From Halobacteriales archaeon YIM A00010 (GTDB lineage Archaea; Halobacteriota; Halobacteria; Halobacteriales; Haloarculaceae), in assembly GCA_025041175.1 (NCBI GenBank), contig JAKCFJ010000002.1, positions 620,001 through 684,000 on the forward strand: a stretch of DNA of 64,000 bases. The letters are read 5' to 3'. The translations under genes and the position numbers were made by a program. The notes under the pieces are model-generated. The model made no database searches. It saw only the letters and a program-made list of their open reading frames with translations, and was not told where the DNA came from. Below, piece by piece: positions 18,507 through 22,596 of the stretch (its first letter is position 1; each line of letters starts with the position of its first letter).

Positions 18507-19148
18507 TCAAACGAGGCTCCCTTCGGTTCCCTGGATGAATTCTTTGATGATCCGCTCCTCGGCTCGGTGAGCCATCGTGCTCGCGGCTGCTGGGGTGACT
18601 TCTAATACTGAGGCCAACTCGGTCAGCGTACACTGACGGGGCGTGTCGTAATAGCCGTGTTTCACTGCTTCGGTGGTGAACCGCCGCTGGGCGTCGGTCA
18701 ACAGACCGCCAGTCCCCTCGGCCCGCGAGAGCGACAACAACTCACACGACCCTCCGATCGCTTCAATCGCCTCAATAGTTCCGGACAACCGATCATGCGG
18801 CATCGTGATCTCGACGAGCAACACTCCATTCTGGACTGTCACTGAAGCTGGGGGAAGCGTCCCCGATGCAACCGTCGCCGAGTACACTCGGGATTCTGTC
18901 ACTGAATATTCGATCACGGCAAACCCCTCTGTTGTGTGGATTGGTTCATACGTTATGATCGGGTCGATCCCACCCAGCGTGTCGAGAACCACGGGGAGAG
19001 CAGTGGTTTCGACCTCGAAGATTCCAAGCAGATGTGGTCCCACATCGTAGAGCGTCAAGAGAGTGAACTCGTCCTCTGGGTGTGCCTTCGATAACTGGAC
19101 GTACCATTCACTTGCTGGCGGCGTGATTTCCAATCGAGCGTTGACCAT
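18507..19148 (-). CDS. HTH-10 family transcriptional regulator
   Basis: A 213-residue HTH_10 regulator. The C-terminal domain begins GLLTDAQRRFTTEAVKHGYY at about 149, followed by CTLTELASVLEVTPAAASTM. It belongs to the same subgroup as the copies at 4626 and 21374. It is divergent from the MDR oxidoreductase gene with a 96-nt gap, suggesting it controls that gene, for instance in response to an aldehyde or quinone-like compound. Confidence 0.9.
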   Translation of the reverse strand: MVNARLEITPPASEWYVQLSKAHPEDEFTLLTLYDVGPHLLGIFEVETTALPVVLDTLGGIDPIITYEPIHTTEGFAVIEYSVTESRVYSATVASGTLPPASVTVQNGVLLVEITMPHDRLSGTIEAIEAIGGSCELLSLSRAEGTGGLLTDAQRRFTTEAVKHGYYDTPRQCTLTELASVLEVTPAAASTMAHRAEERIIKEFIQGTEGSLV

Positions 19149-19244
19149 ACTGATACTCTCCTTCGATAGATCATCAATCTGTATATGAACCCATTAATAT
19201 GTTAGCCTGTAGACGGACGCATCAGCCAACCATACAAGGCAGTG

Positions 19245-20354
19245 ATGATACCACAATCAGTCGAGCAGAAGATCACATCGATCACACAGTCGATCAAGTC
19301 CTCGAAAGGCCATGAGGCGACCGCGCAGCTAGACGAATCAGTTACAACGACCGAAATCGTGATGCCCCACCAAGGCGGATCAGACGTCCTTCAGTCACGC
19401 CAGCGGCACCGTCCCCACCCAGAAGCACACGAAGTACTGATTCGCGTCGAAACTGCTGGAGTTTCATTCGCCGAGGTTCAGATGTTGCGCGGGAGGTATT
19501 TCAACCAGCCATCGTTCCCGTTCGTTCCCGGCTACGATCTCGTTGGGACCATTGCTGAAATCGGGAGGAGCGTAGATCGTTTCTCAGTTGGTCAGCGCGT
19601 CGCTGGGCTGACCGAAACTGGTGGGTGGGCTGCCCACGTCGTGCTTCCCTCCAAGAAGCTGGTTCCCGTGCCAGAAGGTATCGACCCCGTTGAGGCGGTT
19701 GCGGTCATAACGAACGGAGTGACGGCGTGGCAGATGCTCCATCGCGTCACCGAGGCAACCGCCGGCCAGACAGTACTCGTCCACGGCGCATCCGGCGGTG
19801 TCGGCACAGTGCTCACTCAGCTTGCTCGTCTGAGTGACGTTCGGGTACTCGGGACGGCGTCGGCGTCCAAACACGATACCGTGCAGGAATTGGGCGCGAC
19901 CCCGATCGACTACCGCAACGAGGATGTCCCAGATCGGGTCGCTGAATTGGCTCCCGATGGAGTCGACGCTGTCTTCGACCACCTCGGTGGGTCGGGGATC
20001 GTCGATTCGTGGGAAATGCTTGGATCCGGCGGGACGCTCGTTTCGTATGGTGTGGCGGCCGCCCTCGATGCTAGCGGACATCGGTTGAAGCCGTTTGCAC
20101 CGCTCCTCGCTCGGCTTCTGGTCTGGAACATGCTCCCGAACGGTCGCCGAGCGACGTTTTATTATGTCCAGCGGTGGCCGAAGCTCTTCAATCACGACCT
20201 CGCGCAGCTGTTCGAGTTGCTTGCCGCCGGCGATCTCACGATTCATGTCGACCGCCGATTCTCTCTGACGGACGCAAGCGAAGCCCTGGAACTGCTGGAT
20301 TCCGGTGGGGCGACAGGCAAGGTGGTCCTCAGCACAGACGCTTACTCCGGGTGA
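19245..20354 (+). CDS. MDR-family NADPH-dependent oxidoreductase (quinone reductase type)
   Basis: A medium-chain dehydrogenase/reductase of about 369 residues. The catalytic domain has VLIRVETAGVSFAEVQMLRG and the coenzyme domain VLVHGASGGVGTVLTQLA. Catalytic and structural zinc cysteines are absent, which places it with the zinc-free quinone oxidoreductase and VAT-1-like group. The first ~40 residues precede the usual family start; ATG at 19245 is used (a GTG lies one codon earlier). NADPH-dependent reduction of quinones or enones is inferred from family. It is divergent from an HTH-10 regulator. Confidence 0.88.
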   Translation: MIPQSVEQKITSITQSIKSSKGHEATAQLDESVTTTEIVMPHQGGSDVLQSRQRHRPHPEAHEVLIRVETAGVSFAEVQMLRGRYFNQPSFPFVPGYDLVGTIAEIGRSVDRFSVGQRVAGLTETGGWAAHVVLPSKKLVPVPEGIDPVEAVAVITNGVTAWQMLHRVTEATAGQTVLVHGASGGVGTVLTQLARLSDVRVLGTASASKHDTVQELGATPIDYRNEDVPDRVAELAPDGVDAVFDHLGGSGIVDSWEMLGSGGTLVSYGVAAALDASGHRLKPFAPLLARLLVWNMLPNGRRATFYYVQRWPKLFNHDLAQLFELLAAGDLTIHVDRRFSLTDASEALELLDSGGATGKVVLSTDAYSG

Positions 20355-20473: not shown

Positions 20474-20497
20474 TAGTGATTCAAATCTTTTAAAGAT

Positions 20498-20511
20498 AGA
20501 AACTTGTTCCT
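20498..20511. promoter_or_regulatory. predicted operator AGAAACTTGTTCCT next to TTTTAAAG box
   Basis: This near-palindrome matches 13 of 14 bases of the perfect palindrome AGGAACTTGTTCCT at 22046. Both lie beside a TTTAAA-type TATA element. It is about 39 nt before the alpha/beta hydrolase ATG. The nearby HTH-10 regulator at 21374 is the likely binder. Confidence 0.55.
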
Positions 20512-20549
20512 GTGAGAAATCATGCTGGTTCCGATCGAAGACTGTTCTG

Positions 20550-21344
20550 ATGTCGTCCATCACAACAAACGATGGCGTCGAACTGTACTATGAAACACAC
20601 GGGGAGGGGAAACCGATAGTGTTCGTCACTGCGTGGTCCAGTACATTACATTTCTTCGAGAAGAACATTCCCGACCTCGCTGAGGACTATCAAGTAATCG
20701 CATTTGATCATCGTGGCCACGGCGAATCGGAGAACCCCGGACACGGATACCGCATTTCTCGACTTGCGATGGATCTCAAAGAGCTGTTAGAACGGTTGGA
20801 ACTCACAGGCGTCACCGCGGTGGGATGGTCAATGGGGGCAGCTGTGCTGTGGTCGTATCTGGAGCTATTCGGCAGTGATCGCATTTCGAAACTCGTCTGT
20901 GTCGATCAATCTCCGAAAGAAGATCTTGTCCCACAGGATTGGGACCGGCAGAGTTGCTTCGACGTCGAAGCATTCACCACACTCTCAAAGGACATCAAGT
21001 ACGCTGAAGAGGAGGTATTCAGCCGCATGGCCGGTCGGTATGATTCAATAACACTTGGAGAATCGGGGTTTGTTGACGAAATGGTGGACTGTTCGAAGAC
21101 GGCGAAAATCGAACTCATGCGGGATATCCTCAATCTCGATTGGCGGTCGTTCCTTCCCGAGATAGAGATCCCGGCGTTGGTGTTCGTCGGCGGGGAAAGC
21201 CAAGCAACGCCTCCGAAAGAGAGCGCCTACGTCGGCGAACAAATACCACATGCCGAAACTGTGTTCTTCGAAGACGCTGGCCACATGCTGTTCTGGGAGT
21301 ACCCAGAGAAATTCAACAAGAGACTCCGGGATTTCAGTACCTGA
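20550..21344 (+). CDS. alpha/beta hydrolase
   Basis: A 264-residue alpha/beta-hydrolase-fold enzyme. The nucleophile elbow is VGWSMGA with Ser94. The oxyanion-hole region is VFVTAWSST, the strand FDHRGHGES precedes it, and the catalytic His is near residue 246 in EDAGHMLFWEY. A late acidic residue follows LVFVGGES. This arrangement is common to esterases, haloperoxidase-like and epoxide-hydrolase-like enzymes. The gene shares a predicted operator with the HTH-10/SnoaL pair downstream, so the three probably form one regulon acting on the same small molecule. Confidence 0.9.
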   Translation: MSSITTNDGVELYYETHGEGKPIVFVTAWSSTLHFFEKNIPDLAEDYQVIAFDHRGHGESENPGHGYRISRLAMDLKELLERLELTGVTAVGWSMGAAVLWSYLELFGSDRISKLVCVDQSPKEDLVPQDWDRQSCFDVEAFTTLSKDIKYAEEEVFSRMAGRYDSITLGESGFVDEMVDCSKTAKIELMRDILNLDWRSFLPEIEIPALVFVGGESQATPPKESAYVGEQIPHAETVFFEDAGHMLFWEYPEKFNKRLRDFST

Positions 21345-21373
21345 AAAGCAGGTACCTAGCCGCTATCTGGTTA

Positions 21374-22009
21374 CTATTGTGCAGCCTCTGCGACGAAATT
21401 CTTGATAATCCGACTTTCAGCCCGGTGGCGCAACCTGCTCACCGCAGATTTGTGGATATCAAGGGTTTCTCCAAGCTCAGCGAGCGTACAGCCGCGATGA
21501 GTATCGTAGAATCCGCGCTCGACTGCCTCGATAACGAACTCCCACTGGCGATCCGTGAGCAACTCGCTTGCAGTGTGTGATTGGCGTAGTGACACAATCT
21601 CATACGGAATGCCAGCCGCTGCTAACTCGTCGGTATACTCCGATAGCTGTTCGTGTGGTGCTGCCAGCTCCACTGAAAACCATCCGTCCCGAAGGATTGT
21701 TGGATAAATTGAGATGTTCCTCGACCGACGAAGCGGGTCATATGACTTCGTTGCTGATGTCCTGAACTGGAGCAGTACCATCTGCTCATCGGTATAATAT
21801 ACCTCAAATGCACCTACTTCAGGTGTATTCTCGAATCGGTGAACGAGTGCGTCTCCCCTCGGCGTCAATACCTCCAGAATGACGAACGCGCCTTCGTCCC
21901 GTAGCTGGGTCGCCAGCAGTCTGAACTCGGCATCGGGGAATTCGGTCGAAATAGTGGCCAACCAACCGTCTACTGCCGTCCCGTCGAGTTTTACCTGGAT
22001 TTGCGGCAT
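21374..22009 (-). CDS. HTH-10 family transcriptional regulator
   Basis: A 211-residue HTH_10 regulator. The C-terminal domain begins ELLTDRQWEFVIEAVERGFYD and continues LAELGETLDIHKSAVSRLRH. It is convergent with the alpha/beta hydrolase and divergent from the SnoaL-like gene. A perfect 14-bp palindrome and a TTTAAA box lie 25-50 nt upstream of its ATG, consistent with a nearly leaderless, autoregulated transcript. Confidence 0.9.
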   Translation of the reverse strand: MPQIQVKLDGTAVDGWLATISTEFPDAEFRLLATQLRDEGAFVILEVLTPRGDALVHRFENTPEVGAFEVYYTDEQMVLLQFRTSATKSYDPLRRSRNISIYPTILRDGWFSVELAAPHEQLSEYTDELAAAGIPYEIVSLRQSHTASELLTDRQWEFVIEAVERGFYDTHRGCTLAELGETLDIHKSAVSRLRHRAESRIIKNFVAEAAQ

Positions 22010-22045
22010 CTCATTGTAGCCTCGGCTGCTGACGAATTTAAAAGC

Positions 22046-22059
22046 AGGAACTTGTTCCT
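22046..22059. promoter_or_regulatory. perfect palindrome AGGAACTTGTTCCT
   Basis: A 14-bp perfect inverted repeat in the divergent spacer of the HTH-10 (22009, minus) and SnoaL (22153, plus) genes, beside ATTTAAAAGC. It is shared with 20498. Confidence 0.6.
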
Positions 22060-22152
22060 ACGCGAATTCACGAGAGTCTTCGACCTACTCACTCGTGTGG
22101 TTGCAATGAATCCGCAGATCGACATTCGTACCGAAATCAAGGAGAGATACCT

Positions 22153-22596
22153 ATGACAGAACCATCAAAAACTTCTCTACAGGAACAGAACAAGGAGCTT
22201 GCTCGTCGCATCCCGGAGGAAGTCTTTGGGGAGGGGAATCTCGACCTGCTTGACGAACTGTACGCTGAAGATGCCGTCGAGCACAATGCTATGGGAACTC
22301 ACCACGGCCAAACGGCAATTCGAGCGTCTTTCAAAGCCTTTCTCACTGCGTTTCCTGATGTCTCCCAAACCGTTGAGAATGTCGCCGCCGAAGACGACAC
22401 GGTCGCCATGCACATCACGAGTCGGGGGACGCATGAGGGGGAGCTTGCAGGGATCAAATCAACCGGAAATGAAATCGAGGTACAACAAATGTTCTTCATC
22501 CGCATCGAGGACGGGTTAATTGCCGAACGGTGGTTCCTGCCGGATAATCTTAGTCTACTCCAACAACTCGGTGCCAGCGAACTTCCCACAGAGTAG
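22153..22596 (+). CDS. SnoaL-like polyketide-cyclase-fold protein
   Basis: A 147-residue SnoaL/NTF2-like protein, same family as the gene at 4129: helix ARRIPEEVFGEGNLDLLDEL, then AFPDVSQTVENVAAEDDTVA and SRGTHEGELAGIKSTGNEIE. The conserved His and Asp positions of the family's pocket are represented by VEHNAMGTHHG. A good ribosome-binding site (AAGGAGAGATACC) precedes the ATG. It is divergent from an HTH-10 regulator with a shared operator. Confidence 0.86.
   Translation: MTEPSKTSLQEQNKELARRIPEEVFGEGNLDLLDELYAEDAVEHNAMGTHHGQTAIRASFKAFLTAFPDVSQTVENVAAEDDTVAMHITSRGTHEGELAGIKSTGNEIEVQQMFFIRIEDGLIAERWFLPDNLSLLQQLGASELPTE

Follow-up and report, generated by a model that had tools for sequence, protein, structure and literature searches.

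Two nearly identical 14-mers mark the promoters of an HTH-10 regulator, a SnoaL-like protein and an alpha/beta hydrolase in the window studied here (the whole 64,000-nucleotide stretch of DNA). The regulator probably binds both sites as a dimer, activating the SnoaL and hydrolase genes and controlling its own expression. The operator itself, its spacing, its conservation and its uniqueness in the genome are direct observations, while binding, dimer formation, activation and effector sensing are what we infer from them. The putative DNA site of this regulator could be read from sequence alone, and its core recurs before many related regulators. The features discussed are as follows.

20489-20494, plus strand: TTTAAA upstream of operator 2; a TTAAA-type box occurs in 6/6 hydrolase promoters
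20498-20511: candidate operator 2, AGAAACTTGTTCCT (AGAAAC-TT-GTTCCT), at -52..-39 relative to the hydrolase ATG
20516-20519, plus strand: BRE-like GAAA of the putative hydrolase promoter; CGAAA in L100, L099, L101 and L174
20550-21344, plus strand: alpha/beta hydrolase, 264 aa, ATG at 20550; PF00561, 114.2 bits
21374-22009, minus strand: HTH-10 regulator, 211 aa, ATG at 22009; C-terminal HTH_10
22036-22043, minus strand: putative regulator TATA box, TTTTAAAT; a TTTAA- or TTTAT-type box occurs in 14/15 loci
22046-22059: candidate operator 1, AGGAACTTGTTCCT (AGGAAC-TT-GTTCCT), in the divergent spacer of the regulator and SnoaL genes
22063-22067, plus strand: BRE-like CGAAT of the putative SnoaL promoter, followed by TCACG, without TTWT
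22097-22156, plus strand: short ORF VVAMNPQIDIRTEIKERYL, 19 codons from GTG 22097; its TGA overlaps the SnoaL ATG (ATGA)
22153-22596, plus strand: SnoaL-like protein, 147 aa, ATG at 22153; PF07366, 111.2 bits

Two inverted repeats and their conservation

The identities that a first-pass annotation had given to the three genes were borne out by Pfam. The HTH_10 domain of the regulator (PF04967, residues 151-203) scored 49.0 bits against a curated cut-off of 23.1, with IHKSAVSRLRH as the recognition helix. Apart from HTH_10, Pfam returned only a sub-threshold Sigma70_r4, with no PAS or GAF domain before the HTH and no match in the N-terminal ~150 residues, and an NCBIfam search of the regulator also gave no match. 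Its structure model was poor (pLDDT 62.3), the fold search gave no structural match, and a search by sequence found no solved relative (best E 0.073). The window also holds a second short HTH-10 regulator (18507-19148, minus strand), divergent from a quinone-oxidoreductase-like gene (19242-20354, plus strand) and with a weak core, GCTAACATATTAAT, upstream at -58.

We confirmed both 14-mers, at 22046 and at 20498. Operator 1 lies at -50..-37 relative to the regulator ATG and at -51..-38 relative to GTG 22097. All six positions of its arms (AGGAAC/GTTCCT) pair, but the central TT is not self-complementary, so that what had been called a perfect palindrome is a 6-bp inverted repeat with a TT spacer and a strict palindrome is excluded. 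In operator 2, five of the six arm positions pair. With uniform bases, only ~5e-4 matches of 13/14 would be expected by chance in 1,548 bp on both strands. The genome search proposed in the first-pass annotation was run and found the pair to be local: across the whole 5.97-Mb genome, matches to the 14-mer with zero or one mismatch occurred only at these two sites, and with up to two mismatches there was no excess (31 matches versus 31 for a reversed-pattern control), which rejects a wide genomic spread. The degenerate form AGNAACNNGTTNCT was found in six places (control, three), two of them operators 1 and 2; one of the remaining four stands at an ORF edge and three fall within ORFs of 168-524 codons, and we recognised no promoter among them.

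Scanning the genome collection yielded nine related loci, and among named organisms the regulator's nearest relatives were in Haladaptatus, Natrialba and Halostagnicola. Counting the window's own genome, relatives were present in 31 of 146 genomes of the family at E <= 1e-30 and in 15 of 391 genomes of the class at E <= 1e-65. Counting the window, SnoaL and regulator genes diverge in 15 distinct loci; in all 15 the repeat lies 48-51 nt from the SnoaL-side start, and where the core is kept it stands at -48..-50 from the regulator's own start. At least five of the six arm pairs were retained in 13 of these loci (hand count on alignments; L044 was excluded from alignment A1), with compensatory changes such as GGGAAC/GTTCCC and AGGAAT/ATTCCT, while the remaining two, L099 and L103, have a broken or 4/6 repeat. 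Since both place and arm pairing are kept across loci, these comparative data point to the 14-mer as an operator. In L102 (G403) the operator persists despite an interruption of SnoaL at codon 4 and a stretch of foreign-looking DNA that separates the hydrolase from the regulator.

Hydrolase orthologues were rare (5/391 genomes at E <= 1e-80, the window's genome counted). Matches of 84% identity were found among the fetched loci in L039 and L041, and L041 and G330 look like one record, giving six distinct hydrolase promoters in total. All six orthologues lie within ~1 kb of a regulator orthologue, at ~40 bp in five, and all six promoters carry a 14-mer that starts with AG, ends with GTTYCT and begins 52 nt before the ATG. 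By hand count it is two-sided (5/6 pairs) in the window copy alone, with 4/6 pairs in the others, and for this reason we grade the hydrolase operator as only probable, conservation alone falling short of proof. The first-pass interpretation, that one operator is shared by the three genes, is therefore partly supported as a whole: the site is conserved with the regulator across genomes, but at the hydrolase only the site's position and one half of it persist.

Promoter elements and mode of control

On the plus strand TTTAAA precedes each operator by 3 nt (22037-22042 and 20489-20494), so the equal spacing reported for this box holds true. We reinterpret its role as a TATA box: most simply it would be the regulator's own minus-strand TATA, and not that of the SnoaL or hydrolase gene. 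Published haloarchaeal promoter elements are TTWT for the TATA box and CGAAA for the BRE, and 72% of the protein-coding transcripts of Haloferax volcanii are leaderless (PMC4983044). The regulator transcript is likewise predicted to be near-leaderless, starting near the ATG, with TTTTAAAT at the right distance. On the SnoaL side no TTWT was found at -34..-20 in any of the 15 loci, and in most of them the operator is followed, at the BRE position, by a CGAAT/CAAAC-like sequence; hydrolase promoters carry (C)GAAATCATG there. The absence of a TATA consensus from all 15 SnoaL promoters suggests that an activator sits ahead of the BRE. The operator centres lie 43.5 nt from the regulator ATG, 44.5 nt from GTG 22097 and 45.5 nt from the hydrolase ATG.

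GTG 22097, which opens the short ORF before SnoaL, is predicted to be the leaderless 5' end of the SnoaL transcript, and an in-frame equivalent of this ORF exists in 13 of the 15 loci. In L045, L050 and L051 a nitroreductase starts at the same position. Because the short ORF resembles the nitroreductase N-terminus there, SnoaL may have taken over the place of a nitroreductase behind an inherited promoter.

In the mechanism that we favour, a dimer of the 211-residue protein would contact the 6-2-6 inverted repeat with its C-terminal HTH domains, operator 1 serving the divergent regulator-SnoaL pair and operator 2, the weaker, serving the hydrolase. From its place immediately before the BRE, the protein would recruit TFB and TBP to the SnoaL and hydrolase promoters, and these genes, with a BRE-like box and no good TATA, would be activated. 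In the opposite direction the operator adjoins the strong TATA of the regulator itself, which would give autoregulation. The effector, which might be an electrophile, a quinone or a redox signal, would be sensed by the N-terminal ~150 residues. Activation is favoured because a known relative, DmsR, is a positive regulator (PMC1447603) and because point changes in the nos motif of Haloferax mediterranei, which has the same core, lower nos promoter activity (PMC10062603).

The same arrangement could serve repression, were TTTAAA a bidirectional TATA box: the operators would then lie between it and the SnoaL and hydrolase starts, and three promoters would be blocked until an inducer appeared. The identical 3-nt gap before both operators fits such a scheme, as does the TTAAA-type box, which activation leaves unexplained: it is kept upstream of the hydrolase operator in 6/6 promoters even though no conserved divergent gene was seen there. 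We nevertheless regard repression as unlikely, given that the plus strand shows no conserved BRE-like sequence ahead of TTTAAA, that BRE-like CGAA(A/T) stands at about -35..-30 of the predicted leaderless starts, and that the well-known HTH-10 regulators Bat and DmsR are activators (PMC1447603, PMC1885257).

The hydrolase site might also be a decaying copy of the divergent promoter that the regulator does not use, leaving the regulator-SnoaL operator as the only working one; the 4/6 symmetry counted by hand in 5/6 orthologues speaks for this. That the -52 position and the GTTYCT half persist in 6/6, next to a (C)GAAA-TCATG block in most, and that all six hydrolases remain near the regulator, makes this rather improbable. 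Binding by some other protein, for instance the neighbour encoded at 18507-19148 or a different one of the ~100 paralogues, several of which have related cores, seems more improbable by far: AGG/CCT outer bases go with HKSA-S-RL helices, whereas the neighbour has the helix VTPAAASTMAH and no AGGAAC site.

A core shared by short HTH-10 regulators

The HTH-10 family is heavily expanded in this haloarchaeon, with ~100 HTH_10 matches in the genome, and few family members have assigned sites. We used 96 of 100 genomic matches, giving 93 upstream regions (two matches had no start codon and one region was not fetched), with start codons chosen by rule. The inner core AAYNNRTT, with its 14-mer starting at -63..-45, was present before 11 of 19 members of the regulator's clade versus 0 of 74 other HTH_10 genes. 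A paralogue belonging to this clade (G000:C1:2858122-2858280) has an internal TAA near the contig end and is probably a pseudogene.

The wider sample comprised 86 relatives from the fetched loci, on whose choice it depends, each with tblastn E <= 1e-15 over 101 residues or more, a protein no shorter than 150 aa and 80 nt or more of upstream sequence. Removing every upstream region that shared 70% identity or more with one retained earlier left 74. Forty of the 74 had the core with the 14-mer starting at -63..-45 of their own start, peaking at -50/-51 (the window's is at -50), versus 1.2 +/- 1.0 in dinucleotide shuffles, with a maximum of 4 in 200 sets. Among the 55 relatives below 53% identity, 31 had it. 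The other 34 of the 74 lacked the core, and several of these carry related but different repeats. One example is the nitroreductase-linked group (L045, L050, L051, L107, L108 and L109; helices INISA, INLSA or VNVSA), in which a different, asymmetric GTGAATARCTTTCT-type element occupies the operator position. DKSTAS-helix HTH-10 proteins (L072, L067 and L026) have CCAAYATRTTGG-type sites upstream, which may be a Bat-like version of the core. TTTAAA was rejected as an obligatory part of the operator, as CCGAACATGTTCGG-type sites occur without it.

The outer bases grouped with the recognition helix: HKSA-S-RL with (A/G)G(G/A/C)AAC, AKST-SETL with NCGAAY, NPSA-SGV with GTGAAT, SKST-SVV with TCGAAY and NKSSMSKLL with GGAAAC. 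Site similarity correlated with similarity of the N-terminal domain (rho 0.60), the recognition helix (0.55) and the scaffold (0.50). The partial correlation of helix with site (r 0.30) was reached in 0 of 999 permutations, which ignore phylogeny, and among distant pairs the helix correlated worst (0.21 versus 0.31 and 0.29). A statistically separate helix code, in which the helix sets the outer bases, is suggestive only: the N-terminal domain tracks the sites at least as well (0.60 versus 0.55), and the grouping is inseparable from ancestry.

We tentatively propose, as a possibility that falls just short of an even call, that a clade of short HTH-10 regulators (about 20 here) follows one grammar, with an inner AAYNNRTT and outer bases set by the helix, about 50 nt before the regulator's own start. 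If each member marks its own promoter with its site, sites and regulators could be paired by computation; were the grammar true, regulator-site pairs could be assigned from sequence, including the protein behind the haloarchaeal denitrification motif.

What these switches sense is hinted at by redox and detoxification neighbours. In a scan of 20 divergent ORFs chosen from a larger set in the wider clade, ten were of redox or detoxification type (nitroreductase, FMN reductase, DoxX, two FAD/NAD oxidoreductases, two SDR, NmrA, CMD and SnoaL), seven were of other kinds (nucleoside hydrolase, TrmO-like, MFS, luciferase domain, CopD, TIM barrel and RidA) and three gave no match. A redox or electrophile signal is plausible for the clade.

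Comparison with known systems

NarL/LuxR-type C-terminal domains bind as a dimer to two inverted arms with a 2-bp spacer, in 7-2-7 sites. The window regulator can be likened to them in manner of working only, by the inverted arms and 2-bp spacer of its putative site. NarO carries an N-terminal cysteine motif, whereas the window regulator has a single cysteine in 211 residues, C174, within the HTH. Like NarO and DmsR, which are described as bacterioopsin-activator-like, short and without PAS or GAF (PMC11218638), it is a short protein lacking both domains. Those two control nitrate and DMSO respiration, whereas the genes linked to the window regulator are SnoaL, the hydrolase and the quinone-oxidoreductase-like gene; with only two local sites in the genome, it does not group with the regulators of anaerobic respiration. 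Bat of Halobacterium has an HTH of the same family and an activator site upstream of the promoter, the bop upstream activator sequence, further sites lying near brp and crtB1 (PMC1447603), but carries the PAS and GAF domains that the window regulator lacks.

In the accessible text of the literature on HTH-10 operators and binding motifs we found no report of a family-wide operator. The first-pass view that HTH-10 sites are poorly known needs qualifying, since a mutagenised motif with the same core exists, although its regulator is not identified in the accessible text of that paper (PMC10062603). This is the denitrification semi-palindrome CGAAYATDKTYG of H. mediterranei, carried as CGAACATGTTCG by the nos and nor promoters and also found before the bacterioopsin-activator-like gene E6P09_00735 and two DUF2249 genes (PMC10062603, PMC11218638); the protein that binds it is described as undisclosed (PMC11218638).

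Relatives with the AKST-SETL helix have CCGAACATGTTCGG (or CCGAACGGGTTCGG or TCGAACATGTTCGG) upstream of their own start; among the AKST-helix relatives, L055, L059 and L061 are each divergent from a DUF2249 gene. A large CCGAACATGTTCGG regulon was rejected, the exact 14-mer being present in two of five genomes, once each, at the regulator. The shorter CGAAYATRTTCG was found five times, three times and once across three genomes, in which its reversed control gave 0, 0 and 1; one of the CGAAYATRTTCG sites lies 79 nt before the gene for a Tat-type multicopper oxidase whose identity as NirK was not established (58.8 bits against a cut-off of 296.3).

The denitrification motif and operator 1 have in common the inner core AAY-NN-RTT, the 2-bp spacer and a place upstream of a start codon, and E6P09_00735, like the window regulator, has the motif in its own promoter. 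They differ in the outer bases (CG/CG versus AGG/CCT in the window) and in reach, the denitrification motif defining a regulon of many promoters and the window 14-mer two sites. The common core links this locus to the denitrification motif and offers a candidate class for the protein that binds it, and the most fitting description of the window regulator is a putative specificity variant of the denitrification-motif kind, with a small regulon of its own.
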